Shown here: piece after piece, positions 7,044-56,326 of the stretch
How positions within the stretch are numbered: position 1 is the stretch's first letter
Layout of the letters: each line of letters opens with the position of its first letter
Assembly (NCBI GenBank): GCA_037043015.1
Contig: CM073329.1
Span: forward strand, 9,006,648 to 9,070,647
Source: Bryum argenteum
Lineage: Eukaryota; Streptophyta; Bryopsida; Bryales; Bryaceae
Direction of reading: 5' to 3'
Length of the DNA stretch: 64,000 nucleotides
The notes under the pieces: model-generated
What the model saw: only the letters and a program-made list of their open reading frames with translations
What the model was told of the DNA's origin: nothing
Databases searched by the model: none
Made by a program: the position numbers and the translations under genes

Positions 7044-7064
7044 TTTAGCTCGAGTCGAGCTAAA
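7044..7064. repeat. Isolated palindrome (TTAGCTCGANTCGAGCTAA family), element B
   Basis: One perfect copy with central G, between the C-terminal remnant of the element B ParB/methyltransferase-like gene and the FCP1-like remnant. Confidence 0.85.
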
Positions 7065-7155
7065 ATGAACGTGTAACGCCTTTGTATTAATTACAAAAAA
7101 ATGTTTGAGAGTTTGTATCAAAAAAAGTGTTCTACCGGTTTTTACAACTCAATAA

Positions 7156-7853
7156 CTATACTGTATACCCATTATCTAAGAAGAAGTGGGACCTGTGGTA
7201 TTCTCTTGCACTTGACCTCGAGTCGATGATTGCATGGAATTGACGTGGTGGATGCGCTCTTGGCTCGACGTTAGCGGTGGTGGTGGAGGTGCGATGTCGG
7301 GGAAGAGGGCGTTCTTTGTCCATGGAAAGTACCGCATCTAAACTTTGAGTACTAGGCACCGCAATTGCGTATGCGCGGAGGAGGAGGAGGAAGTGCGAAG
7401 GATTTAAGCCACCTAGTGCTCTACTAAACATATCCATTATATCCGGTGTCTTCTGTTAGCCTCCTGCTCGCGCCGAGCGTCGCGAGCGAAACTCATCAGC
7501 ACCCATTCTGACAATCGCGGCTTGCTCTTCCTCAAGTTTCTTCGCAGATTCAAATCACCGCAGCTTCGGAGAACCTTGACTTGGCGATTCCTTGGCCATT
7601 GCGAGCCTTTCCGCTTTCGACTTGCGGAACCCCCCGCCACGCTACCGAACCGCTACGCGATTCCGGGGTATTGCGCAGATTGTCGGAGTATCTCTGCGGG
7701 AGGTTGAAATCCGGTGCCTCGATCCGCACGAGAGAGGCGTCTACCTCGCCCGACCTCGCTGGGCGCGCCTTGCGCTTCCGCTTCATCTTCCCCGGCGCTA
7801 GAGGCAACTTCTTCCACATCATCATCATCTTCTTCTCCTGCACCGTCATCGCC
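7156..7853 (-). pseudogene. Severed C-terminal part of the element B ParB/methyltransferase-like gene
   Basis: Directly beyond the left terminal repeat of element A, the minus strand continues the frame broken at 27023: the acidic run GDDGAGEEDDDDVEEV follows on from ADDDSMK on the other side of the insertion. The region matches the acidic and coiled-coil tail of the element A gene; for instance MDMFSRALGGLNPS here corresponds to MEQMFQSFGNILSQ there. After about 7653 the frame shifts more than once (parts in all three frames), so this tail had decayed or has decayed since. A nuclear-type basic cluster (RKRKG) lies near 7615. Confidence 0.65.
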
Positions 7854-7857
7854 CTTC
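7854..7857. repeat. Target-site duplication CTTC, left copy
   Basis: Identical to 27023-27026 on the other side of element A; immediately abuts the terminal inverted repeat. Confidence 0.75.
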
Positions 7858-7885
7858 AACACGTAATTCGTTATAATGGGAATAT
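7858..7885. repeat. Left terminal inverted repeat of element A
   Basis: 28 bases, begins AACACGTAATTC; perfect inverted match to 26995-27022. Confidence 0.9.
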
Positions 7886-7972
7886 ATACTGATTTTGGTA
7901 ATTAGGGAGACTTCCATTTAGATCGATTCTGACCTGATTAGTTACCAAATCACCAGGTTTTTACTGATAACG

Positions 7973-8290
7973 ATGAATTTTCTCAATATAAAAGACAATA
8001 CTAGTAAAGATTTCATAACGCAAGCTAAGAAATATGCTACCCCAAGAGTAAATTTTATTCATATGAAAGCACAAATACAATTTATTGGTGTAATTGTAGA
8101 CCTCCAACAGGTAGGCACTATATTTATCTACCAATTACGACGTGGCGGAGAAGAGGTATCACCAGAAGTATCATTCTTAGTGAATAGAGGGTCCTCACTA
8201 CGTGTATATTTAGAGAAGGCAGGTTCGTCCATCTCCATAAGCCCACCACTTCTACGACGCTTCGGTGCACGTCTCCGTAATAGACGGTGA
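7973..8290 (+). CDS. Hypothetical 105-codon ORF near the left end of element A
   Basis: ATG start, reading inward from the left end. It has no recognised motif, an N-terminal lysine-rich half and an arginine-rich end (RRFGARLRNRR). It may be chance; nothing in element B matches it by eye. Confidence 0.2.
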   Translation: MNFLNIKDNTSKDFITQAKKYATPRVNFIHMKAQIQFIGVIVDLQQVGTIFIYQLRRGGEEVSPEVSFLVNRGSSLRVYLEKAGSSISISPPLLRRFGARLRNRR

Positions 8291-8378
8291 GACTCAGTCG
8301 AAAATCGTGTTGGATGAACGCGAGTGTTTGCCCCAAGAGATAAGGAGCAATGAGCCTGAAAGATTTGGCAAGGAACTA

Positions 8379-8399
8379 TTTAGCTCGAGACGAGCTAAA
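8379..8399. repeat. Isolated palindrome, element A, one mismatch
   Basis: Core with AGA in place of AGT at the centre; outer bases are T..A and A..T, the element A type. It lies on the 3' side of the FCP1-like gene, as the element B copy at 7044 does. Confidence 0.8.
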
Positions 8400-8515
8400 T
8401 AGGCACGGCGCGTCGACGACGGGGGTTGCGTGATCTGACTTCACCTTGGGGTGTGCGCCGCAACCGAGGTCATCACACCGATTCGATCATTGCGGTTGCA
8501 ATAATTGGTTGAATC

Positions 8516-8716
8516 TCAATAGGGGGGACTGTTTACTACACCATCATCGTCATTATCCATGTCCTCCTTCGTGTAGTCTCTGAGATGACGACGATCGTCC
8601 GGAGCAAAGTAGATTAGCCGCCCCCGCATTCGTTTCGAGAAAGTTCGAGTCGTCACTTGTAATGGAAGCCTCAAACCGTCGAAGGACCAATTACAAGATT
8701 TGCTTGCAAAGCACAT
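8516..8716 (-). CDS. Small ORF with DDGVVNSP segment
   Basis: 66 codons ending DDDGVVNSPPY. It shares that segment with the ORF at 5204-5485 and occupies the same place relative to the FCP1-like gene. Function unknown. Confidence 0.25.
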   Translation of the reverse strand: MCFASKSCNWSFDGLRLPLQVTTRTFSKRMRGRLIYFAPDDRRHLRDYTKEDMDNDDDGVVNSPPY

Positions 8717-8956
8717 GATGCATGTGGAGAGAGCTGACGTCCAACAGCAGCAACCTGGTTCATAAACACAACCATATTAGCAAGAGAGTACAAGACGCTA
8801 AGTGCAATGAAAAAGGTACACAATATAAGAACGCATATAATCATGTATGTCGAGGGTGGATTCACCAATCGATCTACATTATATCTGGATCTAAGCAATC
8901 GTTAAACATAAGCGTTCCTAGGGTAAAAACCAGAACAATACCACTGATAAAAGAAT

Positions 8957-10028
8957 TTAAGGCAAATTCTTCCCACTGATTCGGTCCTGATTCCACATAT
9001 ATGGAAGATTACGGCTCAAGAGCATATACAACTCTGAGTCCTTCGACAGTTCATTTTGCGTGGGTCTACGATGGCGCATAGTCTCGGCAAAATTTTCAGG
9101 ACCGTTCAAATGCACGGAAAGACATATCTCGCCAATCCTCTTCAAGAAGTCGGACTTTGGATCCTCGGGACAGGAATGGTTCCACGGAACAGTGAAAAGT
9201 GTGTTCTTTGTGGGAACCGCAATGCAAGTCTCGGGCTTGGAATCGACAATGAGCAAGTTATCGTCATTGAAATTGGCACCCTCCTTAGGATACAACCGCC
9301 GTCGAGGATATTTTAAGAGGATGGGATTTGTCGTGCGGGTAGATTTGGCGAATGCACGCGTAATTCTTCAACAACAGATTATCGCATTGGTTGGAAGCCA
9401 AGACAAGTCCAGGGGCAGCGTCTGACTTCGAGAACAAAAAGGAGCAGAGTCCATGTACAACCTTAGGATCTAGGGTACTCCAGACGTGGACGTGGCAAAA
9501 CAAATTAAGTAAGCGAAGGAACCCTGTCAACCCGGGACGACAGTAGACGACCCTCCCGGCAACTAAGGTTGGGACGGTGGAGGAAAACACCGGAGGATTA
9601 TTGGGATCCGGAAAAGACAGCACTGCGCAGGCTTTGGGGTAGACACAGAGGCCATCGAACATAGAACCCCGTCCAGCTCCAACATCACATTCAACCACTT
9701 GGGCTTGGACCGTAAAAGACTGCGGGAGATATGCGTAATGGGTAGCTCGGGCGAGATACGCTGTTTGGGATGTTTGGACGGTCCTGCCTGCAGTGAGGGA
9801 ACACGTAACAATGGCAAATGGTATTAAAACAAGAGGTGTGTACCTTGCAAAATTTCAAGTATGCAAAGAACGCCAAAGACGATTGAGTCTTGAACCGCCA
9901 CACCAGGAGGTAACATGAGGTGGTTGGTGGGGATTTTGAAGCAATCGGACGGAACAAGGTATTCGGAAGGGGGCGATAGAAAAGGACGAAGTTTAGGGCC
10001 TTGTGATGAGAAGGACTTGAGACTCATG
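8957..10028 (-). pseudogene. FCP1-like HAD phosphatase, element A, frame broken
   Basis: A plausible start is the ATG at about 10028, then an exon ending CTTGAAATTTTGCAAG/GTACAC (about 9845), and a second exon after acceptor CACTGCAG near 9793. The recognisable blocks are WLNVMLELDGVLCSM (HAD motif I region; compare WLNVVIDLNGIL in element B), VYCRPGLTGFLRLL with VHVWSTLD, and NLLIVDSKPET near 9240. These three blocks lie in different frames (changes near 9660-9560 and near 9290), so one or more indels or unseen introns are needed. The arrangement matches the phosphatase-like remnant of element B, so the gene was probably part of the ancestral element. Catalytic competence is doubtful: the first motif reads LELDG rather than DxDxT/DxNG. 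Confidence 0.55.
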
Positions 10029-10278
10029 AAGATAAAAAGCGATTTGAAAAAAAGAGTCTCAATTTTATTGAATGATGTTTCAATAAGTACAACGATTATA
10101 ATTGTACTATGTACAAAAAGCGAAACAGCATCCAATAATTTGGAGACTACTCGTCGACCTACTCGCCGCCATCGGTGCCGGACTCCTGTCAAACAAGGAG
10201 TGCCGGCTTTAAGATTACTAAATGCGAAAACTTCAAGAGATGAGGGAATAGCAGAGCAAGGAAAGGATAGTAACTAAC

Positions 10279-11640
10279 CTCTGGATTTGCCGGTGAAGTT
10301 ATAGCCGTCTCAGTAGCAGCCCCGGGAGAGTCAAGGGTAGGAGGAACATCCGTAGTAGCCACGGGAGAGTCAAGGGCAGGAACAACTTCGGTAGCAGCCA
10401 CGGGAGAGTGGGTCGGCGTCGGCTTCTCCGAAATCTCGAGGGGTATGGGGCGGGGTGCGATCTCCGGTTCAGCAACAATAGGAGGCTGTGGAGGCGCGAC
10501 AATGGCTGGTTGTGCAGGCGCGACGATGGGAGGATGTAGAGGCGCGACGATGGCTGGTGGACTCGCGTCACAGATGCTGAGGCGAGGTTGATCGGGGTTG
10601 ATGGAGGCAATGGGGATAGGAAAACTAGGCAGTTGGGATAAGATATTCCCGAATGATTGAAACATCTGTTCCATCTTGCCTAGTGCCATGCGGGTTTCGG
10701 ACTGAGAGCTCAGGAATGTGGACTCCAATTTGTCCACTCGAGCATTCGCAGCTACGATGTCTTCTAACCTTTGCCTCTCTCTTACCGCTTCTCTCTCTGC
10801 TTCTTCCTTTGCCTTGCGAGCCTTCTGAGCCTCCTTCTCTTGCCGCTTCTGTGCTCGCTTCTGATCCTTCGTGAGCAAAGGGGCGACAACTTCCACTTTC
10901 ACTGGTGGTTGTGAAGGCTCTCCTTCCTCCGTGAGCAGAGGCATGACAGGAAGAAGAGGATCATCCTCAGCCCTCAAAGGCTTTGGAGAACTAGGCTCTT
11001 CCGAGAAGTCATAAAACCGGACTACTTTGGTATCCTCCGGCTCGTCCTCGGCCTTCCAAACACCTTTCACTAACCATTTGTCATACTTCCCCTTCTCAAT
11101 CTGCCTCCTGGGAGGGCTCTGCGGGCCCTGGGGAGAAGGGGCCAAAGTAGTCTCCTTCTGGGATGGATCAGGAGCCACCTCGTCGTCTAAGGTCATGGCC
11201 GCGAGATCAGCATCATCAGCTTGGTTATCGTCATCCCCGTCGCCATCGCTCGCACCCTCATTATCGTCATTGTCTGACGAGTCAGAACTGTCTGATGATG
11301 ATGCATCCCGTGGCACACGCTCTTGCCCAGGTTCTTCATCGTCTTCGCCAAAGATATCCCGGTAGATGCCATCGTTGGAGTTCTTTGAACGAACCTCCCT
11401 CCGAAACCCCGGGGGTGGAACCGTGTGCTGAACCTGAGTCACAGCGGCCCCAATATCGACGACCCCAGGAGACTGCACGTTTAGCTCGACTCGAGCTAAA
11501 TCCTCCTCCGATGGAGGACCACGACGCAGTCGCCGGAGGGGGGGGCTATCAATGTCCCCAACGACATCGGAGGCCCCAAAGTTGGCTTCCAGCGCCCTCC
11601 GTGCTTGAGGCACAGAAGCGCTAGCTTCTCGACCGAGAAG
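10279..11640 (-). CDS. Acidic / coiled-coil / Pro-rich tail exon of the element A gene
   Basis: This is the open frame forming the C-terminal tail. In order: an acidic Ser/Asp stretch (DASSSDSSDSSDNDDNEG), a charged coiled coil around 10740-10880, a conserved MEQMFQSFGNIL block, and imperfect Pro-Val-Ala repeats (PPIVAP type) from about 10550 to 10450. A donor-like CCAGAG/GTTAGT at 10279 may end it before the FCP1-like gene, so fusion with the phosphatase-like part is possible but not shown. One palindrome copy (about 11480-11501) lies within this open frame, translated as LARVELN. Confidence 0.45.
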
Positions 11641-14600
11641 CCTCTCCAGCTCGCGCCTCAGAAGAAGAACGCTTGGTAGATTCGCGGGGAGGGGCGCGTG
11701 CAGTACCGCGACCATGTGACGCAGAAGACCGAGCTCGACCGCTTCCACGACCCTGAGGGGGAGCACGAGCAGTACCACGACCCTGAGGGGGAGCACGAGC
11801 AGTACCACGACCACGAGGGGGAGCACGAGCAGCACTCGACGGAATTGCCACCGCAGCCCAGTCAATTGCGGGAGGAGAAACCAGAGGAACAGCTGAATCC
11901 ATGGGGGAATTCATCCCCGCCGGAGAAGAAGGACCACCTTCATCTTCATCCTCGTGCTCAGAAGCGGAAGAGTCGTCGCTTGCAGGCTGGGTGCTCTTCT
12001 TCTTAGACATCCTCTTCTTTCCCTTCCCTGACCCTTCAGCAGAAGGCTTGGGTCCGCGATTAGCTTCTGGATTGACGTATGCTGCGACGTTGATATCGTT
12101 GTAGTCCAGATGTTGGTAATCCGACGCAGCATTCGTATAAGCCTCCTTCTCAGTCTCGCTGATAACAACATATGTCTCAGCCTGGCACATCTGTGAAAGA
12201 AGGAGAGAGAAACATATAAGAAGAGTAAGACGAAATAGCTCGACTCGAGCTAAAAGGCCATGGACAAAATACATGATGAAGAGATTTAAGCATGAGAGTG
12301 TTTAGCTCGACTCGAGCTAAACAGGCAGGAGAGTGTTTAGCTCGACTCGAGCTAAACAGGCATGAGAGTGTTTAGCTCGAGTCGAGCTAAACAGGCATGA
12401 GAGTGTTCGGCTCGACCTGAGCTAAACGAGCATAAGATCGTTTAGCTCGACTCGAGCTAAACGAGCATGAGATCGTTTAGCTCGACTCGAGCTAAATGAG
12501 CTTGTGGAATTCAAATTGAAGGAATGGTGCAATGTACTTACAATTCCAGCCAACATTGGCTTTGTGCCACCCATAATCGATAGAAACTTCCCTCCCGGAG
12601 ATGAGAACATCTTGAGCACCCGACAGTAGAACTCCAATCGGAGCTCGGTATCACTGAGACCAAGGTGGTGTTCTCTGTACGCGCCGGGCTTCGAGTACAG
12701 GGGCAACTCTGGAGCGTAGAATACAGAGGGTATCGCATCCAACACACTCTGAGCATGGCTGCTCTTCTTGACAAGAAAGAGGAGGGGGAGCAAGTGCTTC
12801 TCTGAAGCTTTTCCCTCTGCAATGCCGTTGAAACGCTCGTTGCTGGCCGGCATGTAGTTGGCTGCCTTGCGAGAGTACTCGTCCTTCAACTTCTTGTCGA
12901 CGTAAACCATTGCCTGGCAGTTACGGTCGACGTTGGAGGTGATGAACATCCAAACCTCGGGATTCTTGATGTGAGGATCGGTCACGGTGTCTGCCCACAC
13001 ATCAAGGAATTCTTGAAAGTATGGACTCTCCGTGTCGTCCACTCTACTTCCACTCCCCGGGACAGCTCGCAAATCAATCAAGCCTAAATCACACTTGCTA
13101 GATTGATTCCAGGCGTAGTTCTTGTCCCAAATCCCAAATTTGAACTCGGAAGAGTGAAAGAGCCGCGTGTAAACAATCGGTGCAGGAGGTTGAAACGTCC
13201 CTTTGACATCCAGGAACTTCTTGAAGAACTCAGCTGCATATTCCGATATCTCTGCTGCACTCCTATTCTTCGCTTTCTTTTGGCGGTAGATGGTGAAGAA
13301 CGAGTCGCCCGGGACGGAGAGAAGCATGGACATAGTCTGACGAGTCAGATTGTATTCCACCTTAAACTTCCTCCAGTTGTCGACGTCGAACTGCCATTCG
13401 GAGTCGAACAAACCAAGCGAGGGCTTGAGGTTGTGCAGTTCCCTCGCGACAGTGTTCTTCCTCTTCCGATTCTCCACCCACTGCTTTGCACTCATGCACT
13501 GAAAGTATTTCTTCGCAGGCTTCCTCACGGCCACCTTGGGGTAGGGCAACGTTCGATCCGGAGTCTCGTTCAGCAAGTGCTGCGCCAAGACCTCGAGGTT
13601 CTCCGCGTCCAACTGCCCCATTCCCTTGAAGAACTCCCTGTTCAAGGTGAACTTCTTTGAGGCGGTTTCCCAATCTTTCGCCCGATTGAATGGGAGCTCG
13701 GTGTCGGGGTCGATCAGCTCTCCAAGACTGTAGTCAGTGATGAACCTCTTCCACAACTCGTAGACGTCGTCGGGAGATGTGATGATGAGGAGCTCGTTGC
13801 GAAGGTCGGACGGTCTGACGATCTTGTCCTTCGCGTTATTGTTGATGCTGATGAACCTCTTCACCATGGCAGCCGCGAATGCCTGCACGAAAGCCAAACT
13901 ATTAAAAACAACCTATGTTGTTTTAGCTCGAGTCGAGCTAAAACGACATCCCCAAACACGTCGACAGAGAATGCAAACAAAGCCAACCGGAAAAAGTAAA
14001 GACCAGGTAATCTCATACCTCATAACGCTTCCGGTTATCTACTTCAACCGGTGTTTCACGTCGATGCGGCTTCTTGAGCTTCTCAGGGCGGCCATAGTCT
14101 TCCCAGACCTTTCTAGCGCCCATGATGTTCGTTGCCCAGGAAGGTATGAACGTCCCAGCATTGTTCGTCTTGTTCGCCATGGCCGACACGTCCAGAATCT
14201 TGTTGATGTCGGAATGCCACACAACGTGGGCTTTCCATGTCTGAAGGGCGAGGACCTTCGATTCGTCGATCTTCTTGTCCCGAATCAACTGTTTCGCAGC
14301 CTCAACGTGGTGCTGCCCGTCGATAATTCGGAACCGACAAGATTGGACCAGAACTTCCCAATCCCAAACCTCAGGCTCAGTTTTGATCTTCGGCATTATG
14401 ATGATGGTTTGTCTGGAAGTTACATCAAGAGAATTCATCAAGATGTTCTTGTAATGCGCGATGCCGGCTGGTTCCAGAGATCGCACGATAAACCTTGGTT
14501 CGGAAGGGTCAAGGAGGTCGATCGACACGTCAAGGGGATTGTCACGACCGAAGACATAAAACTCTCCACAGCTGTCCCAGTAGTCCTCCAGAGACTTTGT

Positions 14601-15559
14601 CGCTTCCTTGTACTTGATGTCCTTCTCAGAGACAGCCACGTTCATGGTAGGGTTCATGAACGTCAGAGCGCTGCCGGAGGATTTGCTCCTCTTCGATCCA
14701 GAGCTGGAAGAGTTCGGGTTTGGACGCTTCGTACCCTGAACGCCGAGACTTCCCTCTGGAGTGCCTAGACCCGACGGAGCATTCCCGGATGGAGCCTGCA
14801 ACAAAAGATTCCCGGGCCGTTTTATTGGAGCCTTGCCTTTCTTCTTTGAATTCTCGAAATCAGAGAGAGCCTTCCAGATCTGCGCAGTGTAAGGAATGTA
14901 GGATCTGGCGAAGATTTTCGGGGAAGACTGATTGGGCTGCAATTTCGTGTCGATATGATGAAGTTGATTGGCATCGACCTTCCCGACCATAAAGCTCCGG
15001 ATGAAGTCGTGGGAGAAACGGACTTCATTAGGGGGAAACACAATAGTGAAGACGAATCCTTCGACCTCCACAGCTTCGAACTTGATCATGAGAAATTCGT
15101 CCTCATATGTAACAAGTTCGATGAAGGCATCAAGACACAGGGGCAAAAATGCCCCGTGAGATCCTGATTGTTGATAAAAGAAGAAGTGGGTCTTGTTCAT
15201 CGGACGAATCGACCAAGACTTGATGGAATGTTGCTTGGGGGTCCACAATTTTCCCCATTGCGCGTCCAGAAAAATAGCTGCAAGCGGATCGTCTGGTGAT
15301 TGGAGTTCAACTGGTGCAAGGAATCCCTCCAGGGCTTGCATGTTATAAGTGACCTATGGATAACGAAATAATAGAGGGCGAATTAGCTCGATTCGAGCTA
15401 AATGGACACATTAGATAGGAACATAGATGTGAAGTAGACTATTACCTCAGGAGCCGACTCTTGCTGCTCCACTTCCATGTTGATTTCAGGCTCGGTAGGT
15501 GCATTTGCAGCCATCTGAACAATTCTGGCAGTTTGTTTGGTTCTCGGCATCACTGTCAT
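10279..15559 (-). CDS. ParB-like / DNA amino-methyltransferase-like protein, element A
   Basis: Exons: 15446-15559 (starts at 15559 or, in frame, at 15550), 14019-15353, 12542-13882, then from 12190 down. The first three joins use clean GT-AG sites and keep phase (930 codons). Exon 2 holds a ParB-like block (FRIIDGQHHVEAAK) and the WATNIMGARKVWEDYG segment. Exon 3 holds a methyltransferase-like fold: a motif IV-like strand (LGLIDLRAVPG in place of DPPY), then YCRVLKMFSSPGG and GGTK near its end. Exon 4 completes the nucleotide-binding part (TYVVISETE) and runs into lysine-, acid- and RG-rich tracts. The tail frame (10279-11640: acidic, coiled coil KDQKRAQKRQEKEAQ, Pro/Val repeats) is shifted relative to exon 4, needing an unplaced intron near 11.5-11.8 kb or an indel. 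Catalytic motifs look degraded. The N-terminus resembles the histone H3 tail. Confidence 0.6.
11738..11832. repeat. 30-bp tandem repeat encoding RG-rich repeats
   Basis: About three copies of a unit GAGGGGGAGCACGAGCAGTA plus CCACGACCCT, encoding GRGTARAPPQ repeats on the minus strand within exon 4 of the element A gene. Confidence 0.75.
12191..12541. repeat. Palindrome cluster in intron 3 of the element A gene
   Basis: Seven copies (about 12235, 12302, 12337, 12372, 12409 degenerate, 12445 and 12477) in a 351-bp intron, spaced about 35 bases. The outer flanks vary in step on both sides (TG..CA or CG..CG), keeping the extended palindrome. Confidence 0.85.
13922..13942. repeat. Palindrome in the 136-bp intron 2 of the element A gene
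   Basis: One perfect copy, central G, inside intron 13883-14018. Confidence 0.85.
15382..15402. repeat. Palindrome in the 92-bp intron 1 of the element A gene
   Basis: One copy with central T and one lost base at its left edge, inside intron 15354-15445. Confidence 0.8.
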
Positions 15560-15664
15560 TCAAACAATGAGAAACAAACTGTAAGATTCACAGGGGCCAG
15601 AGCACATCGCCATTATCTTCGCGATCAAACCGGAAAAACATGCTTAGATTAAGTGCCAAGATTA

Positions 15665-16858
15665 TTTAGCTCGAGTAGAGCTAAATGGGGTTAACCTGCT
15701 ACATGACGAAGCCCATTTAGCTCGACTCGAGCTAAATGGTCCCAAACCTCAAACAAGATCGGGCCCATTTAGCTCGGGTCGAGCTAAATGGGCTACAAAC
15801 CTGCAACAGAGCAGTAAGTTCATTTAGCTCGACTCGAGCTAAATGGACATACGACCCTATAGCATGTTTACAGCCCATTTAGCTCGACCCGAGCTAAATG
15901 GTCACAAACCTGGAACAAGGTCAGGCCTATTTAGCTCGAGTCGAGCTAAATGAGCCGACTACTTGGCAATCGTCCAAGCCAATTTAGCTCGACACGAGCT
16001 AAATGGTCACGGACCTGGAACAAGGCCAGGCCCATTTAGCTCGAGTCGAGCTAAATGGGCGTACTACTTCCTTGAACGTCAAGCCCATTTAGCTCGACTC
16101 GAGCTAAACGGGCCTGGCCTTATTCCAGGTCCATGACCATTTAGCTCGGGTCGAGCTAAATGGGCTTAGACTACAGCCAATTAGTCGGCTCATTTAGCTC
16201 GACTCGAGCTAAATGGGCTCACTGCCCTGTTTCATGGCAAGCCCATTTAGCTCCAGTCGAGCTAAATGGGCGTGGCCTTTTATAGATCCGTGACCATTTA
16301 GCTCGAGTCGAGCTAAATGGGCTTACTGCTATGTGGCAGTTCAAGCCCATTTAGCTCGACTCGAGCTAAATGGTCACGGATCTCAAACAAGGCCATGCCC
16401 ATTTAGCTCGAGTCGAGCTAAATAGGCTTGACATGCAACAAAGCAGTAAGCCCTTTTAGCTCGACTCGAGCTAAATGGGCCTGGCCTTTTTTAGGTCCGT
16501 GACCATTTAGCTCGAGTCGAGCTAAATGGGCTTACTGCTATGTGGCAGTTCAAGCCCATTTAGCTCGAATCGAGCTAAATGGTCACGGACCTCAAACAAG
16601 GCCAGGCCCATTTAGCTCGAGTCGAGCTAAATAGGCTTGACATGCAACAAAGCAGTAGGCGCTTTTACCTCGACTCGAGCTAAATGGGCCTGGCCTTTTT
16701 TAGGTCCGTGACCATTTAGCTCGAGTCGAGCTAAATGGGCTTGAACTGCCACATAGCAGTGAGCCCATTTAGCTCGACTCGAGCTAAATGGTCACGGACG
16801 TAGAAAACGCCAGGCCCATTTAGCTCGAGTCGAGCTAAATGGGCTTGGTGGTATTGGA
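15665..16858. repeat. Palindrome array A1, in the first intron of the element A minus-strand gene
   Basis: About 23 copies of the palindrome, most extended to CCCATTTAGC..GCTAAATGGG, at about 50-55-bp spacing. The central base alternates G and C almost strictly from copy to copy. The spacers also occur in both orientations: GGTCACGGACC..CCAGGCCC in one place and GGGCCTGGCC..GGTCCGTGACC in the next. A higher-order unit of about 214 bp with four palindromes repeats from about 16290. A 5' exon donor (CATT/GTAAGTTGC at 17152) and an acceptor at 15579 place the array in a 1.57-kb first intron. Confidence 0.88.
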
Positions 16859-16900
16859 AAATCAAGTACTCTAATGAAGCTAATTTGGTAGCTAAATTGG

Positions 16901-21990: not shown

Positions 21991-22019
21991 TTACTGGCCG
22001 TATTTGGCGCCCTTTCTAT

Positions 22020-38694: not shown

Positions 38695-38762
38695 ATCCAA
38701 GTACCAAAACTTAAGGAAGCAAAAATCAACAAAGAGATAAATCAAGCCATTACTTGTAAATC

Positions 38763-44685: not shown

Positions 44686-47600
44686 ATGGCTTCCTCCGCT
44701 TCCCATCTCCCTGTCCAGAACGTCATAGAGATTAGTTCATGTTTTTCGTCCGCTCCTATATGCATTCCCCCGGGTCCAGATGGTGTGGCTGAAATCACAC
44801 CGCAATGGCTCGGTATTCGATTCGGGTACGATGAATCGTCTCTATGGTTAGAGCGTGAGGTCATAGATCCAATTTCTCTTATTGTCCAGTACTCTATGGT
44901 AGAAGCACCTCTGCTTCTCGATGACAATACTTCCATTTGGAAGCTTAGACCAGGCAAGTATCGCCTCTACGGAATTACAGAGTCCGTCATGAACGCAAGC
45001 ACCGTTCTCTTAACTCCTCGCACTTCGTCTACTATCTCTAATGGAGCTCCACTCCTAGCTCGTGTTGAAATCGAACCAGGCCATCGCGTTAGTATAGATT
45101 TGTCAGATTCCTCTAGCGACGAGAAAACATCTCCCGTTCAAACCCGTCTCCCTGCCGCAAGGCTCCCTTCACCAAGTTCTCTGTCGCTTCCCTCTGTCGA
45201 CTTAAGTCCTTCGCCCTTTACATTGTCCCAGGCTAGAAAACCCAAAAAAATTCTTCCTTCTCTTCTGAAACTCAGTTCCATGTCAGGTAGCAAAACTATC
45301 TTGAAAAAAATCAACTTTGAAACCATACGTACTGTCTGTACCCCGTCACTTCCTCCGTCTTTCAATGGAGATGTTTTATACATCCTACCTCCCGTCACTC
45401 CCTCATCTGTTCATAGGAATGCCAAGTCCATGGAAGGTATGGACAAGCGCTTCGATGGCCACGTGTGGACGAGAACGATGACCACAAACATCAGCAACAC
45501 CCTTGGCCTATCCTTCCGCTATTCAAGCTGTGTGGGTCATTTGCAGTGCCACAATCGAAGTTGCGATTTCTTGGAACGACCGGATCGGTCTGCAGGAGTA
45601 AACGAGGTGGAGTTTGAAGGCATTACCAAAGATCCGTTTGCGGTTGGCGAAGTACATCCACCATCCTCCACCATTGTCTGTAAGATTTGCAAAGAACCTC
45701 CCGTCTCTGTTGCTCAATGCTCCGCTAGAATCTTCTATGTCTTTGAAAATGATGATCAGGAGCGTGCTTGTATTCATCTCGGTACCCACGAACACCCTGT
45801 CAAGGTCGGAGTGTATAGATGCACAAAGAAGAAGATAGATGAGCTATTAGAGGAGCATGTCGATCGAAATCCCTAAGCAACAGTTTCCAAAATCGTAATG
45901 GAAACTAGCAAAGATCTCTTAGGGAAATATCCTACTCCGTGATGAAGGTGATCCTATAACCTCGCAGCTTTCTCTCCAAGAGCTAGAGCCAGTTTTCGAA
46001 CAATGTAGAGAGTTGAACTCTCCTGCCATACGGCACCGTGTCTACACTTTCAGATATTTGCGGAGGTATGGAGTTCTGGATGGAATCACCAAACTCAGGG
46101 GCCTTAGCAACTGGGCCTTCGTGCAACGTAACATGTTCCCCGGCCAAGGAGACGACTCCGACAAAGTCTTCATTTTCAAGATGTCAGAGGTCGGCCCTGC
46201 TAGTGGTGTTGACCTTGTACGCCGAATGCAACCTGGCGGCAACCTCTCCCACGCTTGGATGATGTTCGACCACGTGAAACGAGTCAAGAACTGGACCACA
46301 ATGGCGTGCCACGTGTACGACTCTCGATACCAACGCATTCTAACTATTGCTTGTTGTGATTTCCAGTCCGAGGATAGAGAAGCTCAACTCGTATTTTGGA
46401 AGAACCTAAACCATGTTATGGCTAGGCACGGAGTACCAAAGCCAGAGTTCCAAGGATTTATGGCTGACAGTGCTCAAGCCAATTGGAATGCTGTGCGCAT
46501 CATTTATGGGTCGGGCAACCCTACGGTCCCCATGGAAGGCCGTGAACGAACGTGTTACTTCCATTGGACGCAGTCCCTTGAGAAACACACCAAACAGTAC
46601 ATTGTTCACGAACTACAAGATCAACACAAAGTTCTTTGTAAGCAGTACAAAGACGCCCGCACCATGGAAGAAGCTGAGACTCGCTACTGGGCCATCAGGG
46701 CGTGGTGGTCGTCATCGAACGCCACTTCCGAAAGTGGGCTCCAACACCTAGGCCATTGGCTTGCATACTGGCATTTCCGCTACAGACAATGGGGTGGATT
46801 TATGGAATTAGTGAGTTTCCTTATCTATACTTTTTATTACTTAATTATGATATCGTAATCTAATATTTTCATTATATACACAAGTAATTCCATTTCTATA
46901 TTATGGATTTCATTAATTACTGTTCTGCCACAGTTGTACCCATCATAGAGTTAGGGAAAACAAAGTTGTTGAAGCATATATTAAACTGTGATGGGAAATA
47001 CAATGCAGGAAAAAAAATACTCTCCAGAAGAGTTAGCGGAGATGCCGTCCTGTAACCTTGCTGAGACTGTACATACACAACAAATGGTTACAGGCCTCCG
47101 GCAATAAGGGAGGGGACCTCTACGTTGCCGCTGTTGACGATTATGTTCGCGCATTCCTCCAAGTAGTGGCTTATCATCAATTTAACAAGGGTGGCGAAGG
47201 TGGTTGTGGTCCATCTACAGAGGAACTTCAACTTCGCGCAGCTCGACGCAAAGCTCTTCGCACCGCTCAACGCAAGGCTCATCGAACAGGAGATCCAGTA
47301 GATATCAACAAAGCAGTACTGAATTTTCCTGAAGCTCAAGTATTCTATACTCGCGACGCCCACTTGGAAGGAGCTGAGGTCTTTGGTACAAAGAAACGAA
47401 AGGCAAATGTTCCAGTTGGAGCGGAAGAAGAAACACATCGTCCTGACACCGTGAGCTTTTCACGTCCTCAAATCGGGAGAAGGGTAACCCGAGCTTGTGC
47501 TGTGAGTTTGGGTACTATCTACGAGGAAGAAGAAGTTCAAGAATGCCCTCAGGAACCATCTACCTCTCCGGGACCGAGTATCCAACGCGTGACCGCGGTT

Positions 47601-48484
47601 CAAGAGACTAAGGTGAACGAGAGGTTGTGGCACATTTCTCGACTCAACAGCAACTCTTCCAAGGCTTGTTGGGCAAATATGGCAGTGACTAAGAAGAAAT
47701 GTACATCACGCATAATTCAGAACGGGAAGGCTACCCCGGCTCCAACTTACACTGGAATCTGGAAGCCTCCTCAGCGTCGCAAAGTTGAAGAACAATTCTT
47801 TTTCTGTGCAGACGATATTGAGAGATGCGTAAAGGGTTATCATCGGAGATGGATTGAGCAATTCTCTCGGACCCAAGATCGACCACCTATCCCTTCAGTG
47901 TGGCCTGTCAAAATAGGGACAAATCTGACACGTACTGAAATCGAGGCCTTGGAGAATGCAGGATTCCAACTCCGACAGAAGGAGCGCCTTCCTGTAAACC
48001 GGACATTCAATAACATTATCCCTCCACGGGACTTGTCACACATCCCGGTGCCGGACGATGCGAACGTTTTCCCCAAATCTCGAAAATCGAAGAATCTCCG
48101 ATCCGTCGAGTCACGTCTGCAACACCGAAGTTGATGAAGGGAGTCGATTCGGCTCGGGCTTTGCAAGCCACCATACTCAAGGTGACCATGATACCGCAGC
48201 CTGGTTTTGGTTGTATTATTGACTTGGAGTCGGATTCGGGGTCAGTTTATCAAGTTTCAATAAGTGCATTGCCTAATTGTACTTGCCCAGTGATGAAAGA
48301 CACACTTGCTAAGTTGGGTAGAAAAGGATGTCCCTATAGACCCTGTAAGCACCTTTACTATATCTTTGTTAGGGTCTGTAATTTTGATGCTGATAGCGAC
48401 CTTTTTATCCACGCGCCAACCTTCAGTTTCAATGAGGTGAAAAGGATTCTAGAGTGTGGTGTCCTAGACCATGCTAGAGACTAG
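44686..48484 (+). pseudogene. Mutator-like (MULE) transposase with N-terminal zinc-finger-like and SWIM domains, broken
   Basis: Start ATG at 44686. First block (44686-45873) ends with a WRKY/GCM-like zinc-binding region (GHLQCHNRSCDF and HLGTHEHPV). The transposase core follows from about 45975: HAWMMFDHVKRVKNWTT, CCDFQSEDREAQ, FMADSAQANWNAV and CYFHWTQSLEKHTK, the DDE-type MULE pattern. A GT-AG intron (GAATTA/GTGAGT to GCCACAG) lies near 46810-46934. The C-terminal part has a SWIM finger (CTCP then CPYRPCKH). Damage: an in-frame TAA at 45874, a one-base frame change near 45930, another near 46.95-47.06 kb and one near 48.09 kb. It is a decayed copy. The family call is firm. Confidence 0.8.
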
Positions 48485-48890
48485 AGGACACCCTACACAT
48501 ACTCTATATGTTCTACTATAATATTGTGTCTTTCTTATCTTATGTACTATGATTTCACAATTTAGTGAAAATCAATATATATAATTATACATGTTCCTAA
48601 ACCATATGATTCTATTTAACAGATTTTATGCTTGTAAGTAGGTATCATGCACATGTAATCTTATCGTTCGGGGTAAAAACTGGCTCTATGTGCATCTCAA
48701 GCATGCATAATTGTAAGATTCTGTCTCCCAATTCCGCGGGTTTAGGGTCCAAAATCCACGGAAATAAGTCAAGAATATTCGAATATTCTCAGGAATATTC
48801 TTTTAAAAAATAATAATTTTTTTTTTTTACATTTTCTTACTAAAAATACGGAATTACCGCTCTAAATTCAGAATTTCTGCAATCACCGCT
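48485..48890. other. Right subterminal region of element C
   Basis: AT-rich with short homopolymers and no gene; ends in GCTCACCGCTC repeats that form the right inverted repeat. Confidence 0.5.
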
Positions 48891-49319
48891 CACCGCTCTA
48901 CGCTCACCGCTCACACCCCGGCTACGTCCACAGCATTGCTATTCCTGCATATCTAAAGAATCTATGATGCAGTAGACGGAAGCTCAAAACATGAAATCAT
49001 CATCGTCACATACACCAGACGGACCTCTTCATCAATCATCTGTCTTTCGACTTCATCGACTTTTATACTCGCGAAACTATCTATCGGAGCGCAATTACAT
49101 TTTCATATGCTTAAAAACAACGAGATCATTAATCAAGCACTGTGCAGTACAGCAAAAAATCCACATTTTAGCAGTGGTTGAAGAACGAGCTGATCGGTAC
49201 AGATGAGAAGAAATTGATTCAAAGACCTGTTAGACTGAAGCTGTGATTGAATTATCTAACGATGTCTAAGGATGTCGTCCTGAGGTATCCATACCATTCC
49301 AACCGATAAAAATTGCAAA

Positions 49320-49390
49320 CACTACATTCCTTCCAATTAGCTCGACTCCAGTCTGTGCGCAATATTTCCTTAGTTTAGTTCGACACATTG
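49320..49390. repeat. Degenerate palindrome remnants of element B beyond element C
   Basis: AATTAGCTCGACTCCAG and TTAGTTTAGTTCGACAC are half-palindromes of the A/B family. They show that element B's first intron resumes here. Confidence 0.55.
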
Positions 49391-49465
49391 CTTGACACCC
49401 TACACCCTACAGAAAAAGCTTGAGCAAATTGCAAACTTGGAAAGAGACTTGAAAACCTAACGTAC

Positions 49466-50030
49466 CTCCTGTGAAGCTGTGGAACTCCACCTCCGACACG
49501 GCAAAGGTACTTCGCGGCGCTACCCTCCACAGCGCTCACCTCCAAAAGCGACCCTCCTAGCAGTGCGACGCTCCTCCAACAGCGCTCCACTCCAAACGGG
49601 CTCCCTCGAACACCAACCTCCTTGAACAGTGTCGCTCCAAAAGCGCCTCCTCTCTCCCAGCAGTGCAAACCCCAACAACTAACACGCAAAACTGCGAAAA
49701 GCTACACCAAAAATCTACCTCACTACTGTAACCACGAGCTGCAAAAAAACGCTGAAATGGAAATCACTACACCGAAATCAAAAGACGCTGAAATCGAAAT
49801 CGCTACACAGAAATCGTTGATACTCGCGCGCTACGCAAAGCGTCCTAATCGACAGAAACGAGAAAACAACTTTGCGAAAAGCAGAGAGGGAAAAACTCAC
49901 ATGCAAAGCGGAAATGCAGGAGCGAAAAAGCAGGAGCGAGACTGAGCAGAGGAAAAACAAAAACACGAAACTCAAAGTGAGAGAAAGGGAGTGGGAGGTG
50001 AAAGGCGGCGCTGGTCGAATAATGATTATA
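49466..50030 (-). promoter_or_regulatory. Probable 5' exon and promoter region of the element B ParB/methyltransferase-like gene
   Basis: A minus-strand donor AGGAG/GTACGTTAGG at 49465 is in the position equivalent to the element A donor at 17152, next to a GC-richer stretch and then the AT-rich core. Confidence 0.35.
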
Positions 50031-50129
50031 TCCAATCATTTTAACTTCTGCCGAGGCCATCATTTTTACTGCCGAGGCTATCATTATTGCACGACAATCA
50101 CTTTTTAAAAACTTGATTTCTGAAACCAT

Positions 50130-51050
50130 TTTTCACGTTAAGTTTAGTACCATTATTATATTTTTTCACTTCTAAATTTTAATTCATTCACTTTATCAAA
50201 TCATTTTTTTTTAACCACATTAGAATGCTCATTCGTAAACACGCTAAGTTTGATTTTAAGTGTAATAATATAAGTTTCCATTCACTTTTATTACTCATCT
50301 TTTTTTAAGCTACATTAGAATGATAATTTTAACACGCAAAGTTTAAATGTAGTTGTACGAATATTAGTTTTCATTCAGTTTTATTACGCCTATTTTTTTG
50401 AGCAAAATTAGAATGCCAATTCAAACACGATAAGTTTAATTCTAATTGTATGAATATTAGTTTTCATCCACTTTTAGAACTTATATTTTTTTTAGCAAAA
50501 TTAGAATGCTAATTCCTAAACACGCTAACTTTGATTTTAAGTGTAATAATATAAGTTTCAATTCACTTTTATTACTCATCTTTTTTTGAGCTACATTAAT
50601 AGAATGATCATTTTAACACGCTAAGTTGAAATGTAGTTTTACGAATATTAGTCTTCATTCACTATTATTACGCCAAATTTTTTGAGCAAAATTAGAATGC
50701 CAATTCAAACACGATAAGTTTAATTCAAATTGTATTAATATTAGTTTTCATCCACTTTTAGAACTTATATTTTTTTTAGCAAAATTAGAATGCTAATTCC
50801 TAAACACGCTAACTTTGATTTTAAGTGTAATAATATAAGTTTCCATTCACTTTGATTACTCATCTTTTTATGAGCTACATTAGAATGATCATTTTAACAC
50901 GCTAAGTTTAAATGTAGTTGTACTAATATTAGTTTTCAGTCACTTTTGTTACGCCTATTTTTTTTAGCAACATTAGAATGCCAATTCAAACACGCTAATG
51001 TTTAAATCTAATTGTATTAATATTAGTTTTCTATTTAGTCTTGTCAATTT
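50130..51050. repeat. AT-rich satellite: about nine 95-bp monomers in a 285-bp higher-order unit
   Basis: The landmark ATTAGAATG followed by AACACGCTAAG recurs at about 50218, 50313, 50406, 50498, 50599, 50690, 50784, 50879 and 50971. Three monomer types repeat in order (for example 50498 and 50784 share CTAATTCCTAAACACG). Confidence 0.85.
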
Positions 51051-53560
51051 ATTGAAACTAAGTTGATGTTAATATTGTATACTCTATTTTCAGGATGTGA
51101 ACTTTACATTGCAATTCTTCTCACCATTTTCAACCAAGTTCATTTTCAACCATAATGATTTTAGACGAGTCTATTTGCCAAGCGCTTCAAGTTGCTAGGT
51201 GAATCACCGTGAAGGAGCCGTGTCCATGGTGGGCATGCTCAAGCACCGTGCGCAATTTAGAAACCACAATTGGGTAAAGTAGGAGCGGAATCACTACAAC
51301 CCTATTGACACGTAAAGAGGTAGATGTCACACCAAGAAGTGGCCCGTGCGTGGCAAATCAAGCACTTGGAGGCTCCTCCCCCAGGCAAGTTCGTGCTACA
51401 ACCGTTTCATCAAATAGTTCATCGTATGATTGATCAGCATGATTCCACTCCGCGCTTGGTTCCTCCATTGAATCAATCAGATAGTTGCTATGTTAGACAG
51501 TCGGCAAATGACACATGAAGTTTTTTTTTTAGTTTTGTATATTAAGCTATAAGAATTGAGTTGAGGTTTAAATTTTAAAGAATTGGTTGTGTTTTAAATT
51601 TTAAATTTCATTATTCCTTGATATGTGCCTTGTTTACCCTAGCGCAATACTTAATATGTGAAATCATTATTATTTATTCATTCGTATATCCTATACGTAA
51701 GTATTATTTTTTAATTAAAGATTTAAGTGTTTAATTTCCAAGATTTGTCCAATCATTTTAACGTACATAAGTATCTCTCTTGATTTAAAATCTTCATACT
51801 GGTATATTTTCCAAATTTTGTAAACCATAGAGTACATAAGTATAATTGCATTCAAGTATAATAGGTTCAGGTTATAACTTTTGTCCATATGTAATCACTA
51901 CATATTTCTAAATAATGCCATGTATTCCAAATATACCTTTACATAGAAATTACATGTACCAGTATATGATTCGTTACAAATATATAATATTCTCTATATT
52001 AGTAATTATGCCAATTGAACACATTATTATATGAATACATTATGTATAGTAATTTATAGTACATTATTTAACATAATTATGAATATAGTGCAAAATTTAA
52101 TCATAATTTCGAACGTTAGCATTCTTATAACATGGTTATAGATAACTACAATTAGATTGTAATTATTATTTATTACTAATAACTATTTACGATCGTATAT
52201 AATTTAAAATAAATAGCTTAGAAGAAGAGAAAGTGCTTAAAATATTAATTTGGAATAAATAGCACATTTCACATTAAAGGGTGCCCATAATACATCAGTG
52301 TCCGTTATAGATAAAAGGATCTATTTAACTTCGTCGAAATGACTATTTCATTTTAAGTTCTATATTTGAAATCCTTGACATAAGTTCACCTACAATTGAG
52401 CAAATACTTTGGCATATGCTTTGATGTAACATAGCAAGCTATTGTCACTATTTGCACAGAAATTGATACATAATTTAAGGCTTCCTATCAAAGTTACTTA
52501 TCTTGGAGCATAAAACCTAGCATAAATAATTAAGTATATAGACTTGCTCATGCAAGTTGATTAGATGAACAAAAGTTGTTTCAGATATAAACATACAAAG
52601 TAAAGTGTTCGTAATGCTGTAGATGTTGTACGTGATGTTTAGCAATTCAAGTTAAGTATTGAAGATTCACAATATAGTCTAAAGATTCACAATATGAGAG
52701 TTTCTGGGTTTAGGATTTAGGGTTTAGGGTTTAGGGTTTAGGGTTTAGGGTTTAGGGTTTAGGGTTTAGGGTTTAGGGATTAGAGGTTTTGGTTTAGGGT
52801 TTCCGTTCTGTGGAGGCATTTGGCAATTTAGTTATCTTTCCATACTGTTATCACCTGAAGTTAACCATTTTGTTAAAATGCTGATTATACTGTTCTAAAT
52901 ATTTCTCGTTAAATACATTATATTCCATACATTCATACCTTGATTTTGATGTAATAGTATATGATTTATATTATTTGTTGCACGGCATGTTGAGAGCTTT
53001 TTAAGAAATAGCATACTTATTGGAGTGTTACATTTTAATACATTTTTGTATGCACTTAAGTTAATATCGTCTTGAGATTGGTAATCAGGTTATTTCAGTT
53101 CATCATTTTTGAGAATTCATTATTTATATGTTTTTGAGGTAACTCTTTCTTATTGACAATGAATCATATAGAAAACCAAATTTCTTACAAAGCATGGCAC
53201 ACTATGAATAATACTCATATTAAATGTATTCAATATGAGGGACTTTGAAATGTCACAAAACGCTTAAGAAAGTATCAAGTGGAGAAGATGAATAATTACA
53301 ATCTTTTAAATACAATATATCCATTTAGGTTGACATGTGAAACAAACCATATCCACATGCAATATAACCCCATGTAGTGAGACTAATAATGAATCCAATC
53401 ACATTAAGCAATAAGTATAATCATGAATGTCCATAAAAACAATTAAATTTTCTCTATATAATGAACAAAAAATTGTAAATCTATTTCCTACCTTCGGTGA
53501 AAATGAGTATACAAAACTTAGAAGAATATATCTTTCAAACTTAAACTATTTGAGTATGCC
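51050..53560. other. Rest of the AT-rich core of element B, no genes
   Basis: No credible ORF. The segment TATCCTATACGTAAGTATT at about 51690 is shared with the core of element A. Confidence 0.6.
52706..52802 (+). repeat. Interstitial plant-type telomere repeat (TTTAGGG)n
   Basis: About nine perfect TTTAGGG units from 52715, with degenerate units at both edges, inside the AT-rich core of element B. Confidence 0.95.
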
Positions 53561-54319
53561 TAAGTTTTAATTGCATGGTCAATATTGGCATGATAACTTT
53601 GAAATGCATGCCTTCATTGGAAGCCTATTTCGGCCAATCAGTGTAATATTACGATTGATCTTGTCGCAGGGATGTACAGAATTCGTTGATGTACGTAGGA
53701 ATGGCGGCTGTATTCCCGCTCGAATTCGCGGATGCTACTTCTATGCAGAAATATAGGGAGAAGAAAGTTTCCCGCCGGAATCTCACCATTGATTTTCCTG
53801 ACGAATCACATTTGTATTTCCCGCCTCATCTCGAGATAAGGTGGAGCGCGGGAAAGGCCAGACGAATCTGAATGACCTCCGAGAACCTGGCCGTCTTGAT
53901 TCCTTTTTCCTCATTTTCTGAAGCTGCTGCTCCTCCTTCAGCGTTTTCGGCTTCGTCGGCGTTTCAGATTCCAGCGCGCTGCACGTAGGGAACAAGATGA
54001 GCTCCACACAAGCGTCAAGGTAAGACTCCACGCATATGCCAGTAAGATGATTTGTGTCTCTGTTATCGTACGTGCTTCTTGCATTCTACAATTCAGTTTC
54101 GGCGTCATAAGCCCTAAACCCAGAGTAGCGTTCCACATACGTCGTGGACGCCTTTATTGTGATGCTTAAATTTGTGTGTTTTCAATGTAAGTGCAGGCAA
54201 GCCTTCAGTTTCATCGCACTCATTTCGAGTGCAAACATATTGCTTTCAGAGAATGAGGAGAAGCGGTACTCCGGAATACGCGCTGTAATTATCGGGAGAG
54301 AAAGAGTGAAGACGTATAG

Positions 54320-56326
54320 GTCGAGTCGAGCTAAATAGCAGGACTATCACAGTGAAGCAGTTTAGCTCGATTCGAGCTAAGTGCGAGGCTTGTACAGTCA
54401 AGTAGTTTAGCTCGACTCGAGCTAAATTACTAGACTTTGCAAGGTCGAGCAATTTAGCTCGAGTCGAGCTAAAGTATGACTAACCATAGCCATAAAAGTT
54501 TAGCTCGATTCGAGCTAAACTTCACGTCAAATAGAGATTGTTAATATTTAACCAGTTTAGCTCGACTCGAGCTAAACTACGGAGTCCAAATGGCGCAAAC
54601 TGTGCTTCAGTTTAGCTCGACTCGAGCTAAACTAGACGTTTACTTTTGAGAGAACTGAAATCCATTATCCACCCAAGTCGCCCAATATGTAACTCAGTTT
54701 AGCTCGACTCGAGCTAAACTGTGACATTAAGTTAGTCGAAATTTACCAAAAGAATGAGGGTTCATGAATCATTCAAATCCTTAGACTGTAATGTTTAGCT
54801 CGATTCGAGGTAAACTAAACGATTAAATTACGGACTTTCGAATTCTATTCAGTTTAGCTCGAGTCGAGCTAAACTAAGGCACCCAGGTCTCCCAATATTT
54901 AACTCAGTTTAGCTCGACTCGAGCTAAACTGTGACATCAAGTTAGTCAAAATTTACCTAAAGAATGAGAGTTGATGTAATCATTTAAAACCTTAGACTGT
55001 AATGTTTAGCTCGATTTGAGGTAAACTTAACGATTAAATTACGGACTTCTGATAATCTATTAAGTTTAGCTCGAGTCGAGCTAAAGGCGAGGAGTCCACC
55101 TCGACCAATATGTAACTCGGTTTAGCTCGAATCGAGCTAAAGCGTGACCCTATGTAATTTAGAGTGTACCTAAATAGAACATAGAGCTGATTTACTCTAT
55201 CAAATCCTTAGACTGTAAAGTTTAGCTCGATTCGAGGTAAACTAAACGATTAAAGTACGGACTTTTGATAATCTATGATGTTTAGCTCGAGTTGAGCTAA
55301 ACTTTCGATTCAACCTCGACCAATATAGAACTCAGTTTAGCTCCAGTCGAGCTAAACTGTGACCTTCAGTAAGACAAAATTTACCTAAAAGAAGAGAGTT
55401 GATGTAATCATTTTATTTCTTAGACTGTACTGTTTAGCTCGATTTGTGCTAAACTAAACGATTAAATTACGGACTTTCGAATTCTATTCAGTTTAGCTCG
55501 AGTCGAGCTAAACTAAGGCACCCAGGTCTCCCAATATTTAACTCAGTTTAGCTCGACTCGAGCTAAACTGTGACATCAAGTTAGTCAAAATTTACCTAAA
55601 GAATGAGAGTTGATGTAATCATTTAAAACCTTAGACTGTAATGTTTAGCTCGATTTGAGGTAAACTTAACGATTAAATTACGGACTTCTGATAATCTATT
55701 AAGTTTAGCTCGAGTCGAGCTAAACTGAGGAGTCCACCTCGACCAATATGTAACTCAGTTTAGCTCGAATCGAGCTAAACTGTGACCCTATGTAATTTAG
55801 AGTGTACCTAAATAGAACATAGAGCTGATTTACTCTATCAAATCCTTAGACTGTAAAGTTTAGCTCGATTCGAGGTAAACTAAACGATTAAAGTACGGAC
55901 TTTTGATAATCTATGATGTTTAGCTCGAGTTGAGCTAAACTTTCGATTCAACCTCGACCAATATAGAACTCAGTTTAGCTCCAGTCGAGCTAAACTGTGA
56001 CCTTCAGTAAGACAAAATTTACCTAAAAGAAGAGAGTTGATGTAATCATTTTATTTCTTAGACTGTACTGTTTAGCTCGATTTGTGCTAAACTAAACGAT
56101 TAAATTACGGGCTTTCGAAATCTATTAAGTTTAGCTCGAGTCGAGCTAAACTGTGACCCTATGTAATCCAGAGTGTACCTAAATAGAAAATAGAGCTGAT
56201 TTACTCTATGAAATCCTGAGACTGTAAAGTTTAGCTCGATTCTAGCTGTACTAAACGATTACATCAAAGACTATTGAAATATGAGACTTCGCGAACTCGG
56301 GGAATTTTGCTCGACTCGAGCTAAGT
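54320..56326. repeat. Palindrome array B2, in the first intron of the element B DUF7869-type gene
   Basis: About 29 copies including degenerate ones, mostly extended to AGTTTAGC..GCTAAACT as in array B1. Every third copy or so has a mutated right arm of one recurrent type (CGATTCGAGGTAAAC or CGATTTGTGCTAAAC), so degenerate copies were themselves amplified. Confidence 0.88.
54813..56118. repeat. 639-bp tandem duplication inside array B2
   Basis: The segment starting CTAAACGATTAAATTACGG at about 54815 repeats 639 bp downstream with only a few differences (for example CTAAAGGCGAGG against CTAAACTGAGG), doubling about ten palindromes. Confidence 0.85.

Follow-up and report, generated by a model that had tools for sequence, protein, structure and literature searches.

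Intronic palindrome arrays in DUF7869 transposons of the moss Bryum argenteum: a candidate site for an element-encoded protein

One of the questions raised by a 64-kb stretch of the genome of the moss Bryum argenteum (C9:9006648-9070647; the window, meaning the whole stretch analysed) regards why a single 21-bp palindrome returns 116 times, almost always in the introns and gene flanks of two transposons, here named A and B. Both carry a gene for a DUF7869 (PF25273) protein and, on the opposite strand, an orphan gene, ORF2. The explanation that we favour, with a probability of about 55%, is that the palindrome is a dyad-symmetric, double-stranded site for a transposon-encoded protein, likely ORF2 (or else DUF7869), which would keep the promoters of the element from silencing or activate them, and would mark the element for mobilisation.

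Palindrome number and placement

The pattern TTAGCTCGANTCGAGCTAA has 112 matches with up to two mismatches in the window, from 7045 (first) to 56306 (last), against none in 100 dinucleotide shuffles, and the extended 21-mer TTTAGCTCGANTCGAGCTAAA has 116 copies with up to four mismatches. An earlier note, made from the letters of this DNA, had put the number at about 115-120, which agrees with these counts. A genome-wide count, also proposed there, gives a total of 6373 exact copies of the 19-bp core in the 258.8-Mb genome, in which neither the reversed 19-mer pattern nor a made-up palindrome built the same way has an exact match.

The earlier note had assigned the arrays to two elements. The arrays do fall in A and B, with the correction that A is nested inside B: comparison with a second copy of B on contig C1 reveals two insertions in the window copy, A and a further element, C. 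The window copy of B has lost its left part or carries it in altered form. The elements are as follows, in window positions:

5227..59400, element B, approximate extent, interrupted by A and C; left of 5227 the window copy no longer matches that on C1
7854..7857, CTTC, 4-bp target site duplication on the left side of A; B on C1 has the empty site
7858..27030, element A, a 19,173-bp DNA transposon nested in B
7858..7885, plus strand, left 28-bp terminal inverted repeat of A
27003..27030, minus strand, right 28-bp terminal inverted repeat of A
27031..27034, CTTC, target site duplication on the right side of A
33321..48925, element C, nested in B separately from A; has no palindromes

The 28-bp ends of A are perfect (AACACGTAATTCGTTATAATGGGAATAT) and have 600 + 614 matches in the genome with up to three mismatches. 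Among the ends listed on C1, 46 forward and 41 reverse ones are exact and include 15 facing pairs within 32 kb, 14 of them separated by 13.7-29.4 kb and one by 151 bp. Two more full elements with the ends and plan of A were found, D (18,585 bp) and F (16,960 bp), and all three have a 4-bp target duplication (CTTC in A, TTTT in D, CCTA in F). In both A and B the genes run outward from an AT-rich centre, DUF7869 rightward and ORF2 leftward, with a NIF-phosphatase-like gene beyond ORF2:

5806..6423, minus strand, gene 3 of B, NIF-like phosphatase (PF03031, E 2.1e-11)
8957..9854, minus strand, gene 3 of A, NIF-like phosphatase, weak (E 0.012)
10192..12190, minus strand, ORF2 of A exon 4 and the open frame after it in another frame; holds the sole coding palindrome
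12542..13882, minus strand, ORF2 of A exon 3
14019..15353, minus strand, ORF2 of A exon 2, with the IIDGQHHVEAAK motif, ParB-like by weak evidence
15446..15550, minus strand, ORF2 of A exon 1, starts MPRTKQTAR
24383..26296, plus strand, DUF7869 candidate transposase of A (PF25273, E 6.8e-44)
27626..30727, minus strand, ORF2 of B: exon 3 at 27626-29014; exon 2 region at 29299-30727, frame broken in the window copy
56418..59324, plus strand, DUF7869 gene of B (PF25273, E 1.1e-33 at 58040-58765)

The gene models were built on splice consensus, codon periodicity and homology, and intron assignments are by these models; the ORF2 exons of A are supported by the codon periodicity of substitutions. 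The 5' exons of both B genes were not located, and "first intron" for arrays B1 and B2 is an analogy with A. The palindromes are distributed as follows:

7044..7064, palindrome of B, not in an open frame; shared with the copy of B on C1
8379..8399, single palindrome ~520 bp from the left end of A; same place in D and F
11480..11500, palindrome in an exon, where it can be read as LARVEL; shared by A, D and F
12234..12496, 7 palindromes, ORF2 intron 4 of A, 35-bp period
13922..13942, palindrome, ORF2 intron 3 of A
15382..15402, palindrome, ORF2 intron 2 of A
15665..16839, array A1: 23 palindromes, mean spacing 52.5 bp, ORF2 intron 1 of A
22684..23441, array A2: 12 palindromes, first intron of the DUF7869 gene of A
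26584..26604, single palindrome ~450 bp from the right end of A
27258..27627, 5 palindromes, ORF2 intron 4 of B
29064..29367, 8 palindromes, ORF2 intron 3 of B, 38-bp period
30877..32760, array B1: 25 palindromes 5' of ORF2 of B, in a first intron if B is built like A
54315..56325, array B2: 30 palindromes 5' of the DUF7869 gene of B, again in a first intron if B is built like A

Based on these models, 115 of the 116 copies are non-exonic, in line with the placement in introns or flanks that had been claimed, and the copy at 11480 is indeed the lone exonic one. Introns 1-4 of ORF2 of A hold 23, 1, 1 and 7 copies, and the first intron of its DUF7869 gene holds 12. The corresponding numbers in B are 25 in the array 5' of ORF2, 8 in its intron 3, 5 in its intron 4 and 30 in the array 5' of the DUF7869 gene; three further copies (7044, 8379 and 26584) lie at element ends or in non-coding flank. 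For A by itself, 44 of the 47 copies are intronic, two are near the ends and a single one is coding, whereas the gene models assign 43% of A to coding sequence (P = 1e-10). There are no palindromes between 32,760 and 54,315, a gap that takes in element C with its satellite, and the absence from C (33321-48925) noted before is confirmed. A 16-bp tandem repeat, AGCTAAATGGGCATCG, adjoins array A1 at 16890-16978 and resembles palindrome half-sites.

Outside the window, we looked at the first 100 of the 6373 sites, which form nine clusters in the first 1.22 Mb of C1 (C1:9,794-1,224,192). All nine clusters belong to these elements: seven by DUF7869 or ORF2 protein matches, one by element ends together with an ORF2 start, and the remaining one by DNA that is 82% like A. 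The left part of one cluster (L053) has no protein match of its own and its cluster matches through L054; the likeness of L055 to A is at the DNA level only. Some of the clusters are families with an ORF2 48-62% like that of B. The even spread over unrelated DNA that would speak against the earlier note was therefore not seen in these 100 sites. The sample also bears on the possibility that a host transcription factor or insulator protein binds the palindromes and drives the element promoters. Such a factor could account for a core that is the same in families with ORF2 proteins ~33% identical, and the first-intron location suits an enhancer; yet the nine sampled clusters all lie within this transposon group and other DUF7869 families carry other palindromes (see below), and we regard a host factor as quite unlikely.

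Conservation, symmetry and miniature elements

In the ORF2 gene of A, D and F, the intron palindrome positions differ in 4.2% of pairwise comparisons (22/525), against 15.7% (178/1136) for the other intron positions; codon positions 1, 2 and 3 differ by 6.7, 4.7 and 11.5%. Fisher tests of palindrome against other intron divergence give P values of 1e-4, 2e-4 and 7e-6 for the single pairs and 7e-13 when pooled over these non-independent pairs. One explanation of the arrays that has to be weighed against such numbers is functionless satellite growth within introns. The arrays do have tandem periods of 35-211 bp, and the array in ORF2 intron 1 varies in size between copies (23 palindromes in A, 16 in D and 10 in F). 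The claim that this is not a simple satellite, with spacers that differ, needs qualification in this respect, but it stands in that the same core occurs with different spacers. The palindromes are more conserved than the spacers in three elements, and the core is the same across arrays with different spacers, lone intronic copies and miniature elements and is encoded in relatives from other assemblies, which makes growth without function very unlikely.

Another option is that the palindromes act as hairpins in intronic RNA, in splicing or as small RNAs. The introns are presumably transcribed, a 9-bp stem with a 3-base loop is possible, and the bases 11-15 from the centre covary. Among 248 copies, many of them related by descent, 143 core changes are one-sided and 4 are two-sided (1 of these compensatory), and the bases beside the centre, which would form the loop, are 94-97% conserved. 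One-sided changes together with conserved bases at the centre fit a DNA-protein site and do not fit an RNA hairpin, which was set aside on this symmetry count. Copies are also present in gene-less miniature elements, and no Rfam match at gathering threshold was obtained in window 15400-33400, so that an RNA role is highly improbable.

The miniature elements are 151 bp long, with ends that are the 28-bp ends of A, and their interior has 157 matches with up to three mismatches. Between these ends lie two palindromes, which mostly have 2 and 4 mismatches, although one of the two is perfect in 9 of 100 listed copies. When the interior is shuffled by letter, 4 of 20,000 shuffles yield even one copy (up to four mismatches). 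A 4-bp duplication was found in four of six miniature elements, and among those studied (L057-L063) one is embedded in DNA that resembles an ORF2 exon from a different element. By carrying two palindromes, the miniature element keeps this signal where almost nothing else remains. It also qualifies the claimed confinement to introns and flanks, which holds by the models in the window but not for these palindromes, which lie outside any intron.

The miniature elements raise an alternative to the favoured explanation, in which the palindromes serve transposition only, as accessory sites of the transposition complex, and the intronic arrays are tolerated tandem growth. The model here is TNPA of En/Spm, an element-encoded protein that binds repeated short sites needed in cis; non-autonomous derivatives of En/Spm keep these sites, and the motifs differ between families (PMC2613891). 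The two palindromes retained between the ends of the miniature elements, against so few shuffles with even one, fit this alternative, as do the single copies that A, D and F have ~520 and ~450 bp from their ends, and DUF7869 is what families with different palindromes have in common. It fits less well that 44 of the 47 copies of A are in introns and not subterminal, and that most of the miniature copies listed multiplied despite 2 and 4 mismatches in their palindromes. A role in transposition only is possible, though we consider it doubtful.

Candidate proteins and distant families

ORF2 of A and ORF2 of B are ~33% identical where aligned and their exon 3 is bounded at the same residues. Despite this low identity, the palindrome 21-mer is identical in A and B and fills ORF2 introns 3 and 4 of both. 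The spliced four-exon ORF2 used as a query found no protein at E 0.001, perhaps because most database entries are single exons, and exon 3 alone found 12 relatives. Four of them (P0121, P0122, P0123 and P0127), from other assemblies and 65-83% identical, continue past the exon into palindrome-encoded peptides. ParB/parS systems combine several palindromic sites with a protein bearing a DGQH-type motif. The moss elements are similar in having palindromic sites and a protein with a DGQH-type motif; Pfam, NCBIfam, PDB searches (profiles A3 and A4), ParB_N and an exon-2 model gave nothing firm for ParB homology of ORF2.

ORF2 of family A starts with MPRTKQTAR, which matches residues 2-8 of the histone H3 tail. 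An N-terminal (A)RTKQTAR is present in A, D and F and, under the splice model, no in-frame methionine lies upstream in these three; the peptide was not seen at the ORF2 start of B. The exon start has 70 genomic copies with up to three mismatches, and 51 of these keep the peptide. In the H3-like codons a synonymous excess appears when changes are counted by copy (20 to 22, P 0.001), but not when each distinct change is counted once (5 to 18, P 0.72), and these counts do not demonstrate selection on the peptide. The H3-like start is a lead, from sequence, for a chromatin role. It could be part of a self-licensing chromatin system, in which ORF2 would sit on the intron palindromes, its H3-tail copy would draw or decoy readers or erasers of histone H3 lysine 4 (H3K4), the element would escape silencing and become open to mobilisation, and other DUF7869 families would have evolved different palindromes for the same purpose; this is speculative and we think it unlikely. 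Were the H3-tail match functional, it would be histone mimicry by a plant transposon.

The DUF7869 proteins score 150.2 bits (A) and 116.9 bits (B) against PF25273, with a curated cut-off of 26, and their closest named relatives are from the mosses Ceratodon and Physcomitrium. Pfam assigns no function to DUF7869. The predicted model resembles integrases weakly, a Foldseek structure search with it gave no significant match, and PDB sequence profile searches with DUF7869 and with ORF2 exon 3 yielded no credible match. Among the open frames scanned in A and B, only PF25273 and, in B, NIF are above cut-off, and neither a transposase of the Mutator-like element (MULE) type nor a TNP2 domain was found. 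Compared with other PF25273 proteins, the domain here sits in a transposon with inverted ends and 4-bp duplications, so that the abundant DUF7869 gains a setting, that of a DNA transposon with miniature derivatives. A NIF-like phosphatase gene is common to both transposon families.

Distant DUF7869 genes were approached through five longer stretches upstream of them (L045-L049, 7.5-8 kb each). Two of the five, L045 and L047, have a repeated palindrome of their own, L046 has a different short repeat, and L048 and L049 have no repeated palindrome. The palindrome AGGTCTGCGGCCGCAGACCT has 11 sites in five clusters, all of which lie 4.4-7.2 kb upstream of a DUF7869 match. For GTRGGCACATGCCYAC, with 113 genome matches, 9 of 21 clusters are within 12 kb of a DUF7869 match, 8 of them upstream. 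For either palindrome, chance would place about 1% of clusters within 12 kb of such a match; for GTRGGCACATGCCYAC, the lists used hold 104 of 151 DUF7869 matches (the scored part of 1807 candidates) and part of 100 of the 113 sites. A weak count comes from 30 further loci (L009-L038, 3.5 kb each), which have no palindrome and flanks too short to hold an array.

Mechanism, known systems and other features

Starting from the sites themselves, their model-based placement, their sequence conservation both inside a family and across families, and the fact that miniature elements carry them, we infer protein binding, the identity of the binder, and an effect on chromatin or transposition. In the favoured explanation the ORF2 protein (most likely) or the DUF7869 protein would bind the palindrome as a dimer and would coat the non-coding parts of the element by way of the dense first-intron arrays, the smaller intron sets and the single copies near both ends. 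This coat would shield both divergent promoters from host silencing, or activate them, and the palindromes would tag both the full element and its miniature derivatives for mobilisation. A part in mobilisation is suggested by the miniature elements, and expression control by the first-intron arrays.

Several results weigh against this explanation. Two array types show covariation at bases 11-15 from the centre, which a fixed binding site would not predict; the covariation may reflect two array lineages only. Pfam and NCBIfam recognise no DNA-binding domain in ORF2, the PHROGs match to ParB (PHROG 1033) is weak (E 0.051), a ParB_N genome search missed ORF2 and gave one unrelated match (E 1.5), and the predicted exon-2 structure is useless (predicted local distance difference test score, pLDDT, 31). 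Among the distant families, 12 of the 21 GTRGGCACATGCCYAC clusters are without a DUF7869 match in the list used, and the five stretches have no ORF2 homologue, so the binder there would be another protein.

A precedent for element-encoded control of silencing is VANC21 of VANDAL21 in Arabidopsis, which binds short motifs in such places and brings methylation loss; the VANDAL21 motif YAGTATTAY forms tandem repeats in introns, intergenic and terminal non-coding parts, VANC6 targets carry a different motif, and repeat number changes fast (PMC5735166; PMC10398659). The moss elements are similar in being multi-gene DNA transposons whose introns and other non-coding parts hold a short motif, repeated in tandem. 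The different array sizes in A, D and F, like the changing repeat number of VANC targets, were counted in favour of the binding-site explanation. Unlike VANDAL, the moss elements have DUF7869, a 4-bp duplication and a 21-bp palindrome, no VANC-like domain was recognised, and moss families keep the same core despite ORF2 proteins ~33% identical. VANDAL elements have a MULE-type transposase (VANA) and a 9-10 bp target duplication. The 151-bp non-autonomous derivatives that keep the repeat motif are similar to those of En/Spm by analogy and not by membership: unlike CACTA (En/Spm) elements, the moss ends are AACACGTAATTC, the duplication is 4 bp and not 3 bp, and the arrays are intronic and not subterminal. 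The element is neither VANDAL nor En/Spm, as its transposase domain, ends and duplications differ. Sola-type transposons have 4-bp duplications, as the moss elements do.

A literature search found no paper on DUF7869, and the listed papers matching the palindrome letters were unrelated by title; searches on H3 mimics, Sola and moss, subterminal repeats, and palindromes and moss had no report of this system among the papers listed. To our knowledge, sequence-specific anti-silencing by transposons has been worked out mainly in one Arabidopsis group. If the binding-site explanation is true, family-specific intronic palindrome arrays in an unrelated moss superfamily would suggest repeated origins of anti-silencing, an idea that can be tested directly on so sharply defined a 21-bp site.

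Some minor observations regard the chromosomal setting and element C. Contig C1 (44.1 Mb, 17% of the genome) holds 99 of the 128 listed ORF2 matches (B-type query; 128 of 945 candidates scored), and the miniature elements are not crowded there (7 of 100 listed); C1 could be a sex chromosome or some other region with little recombination. Element C has no Pfam domain in the five open frames scanned; it has a ~9-bp duplication (ACAACATTG/ACAGCATTG) and similar GC-rich ends, and contains a 436-bp satellite repeated six times at 39106-41782. The AT-rich centre of B contains ~14 copies of the plant telomere unit (GGGTTTA) at 52706-52802 of the window.

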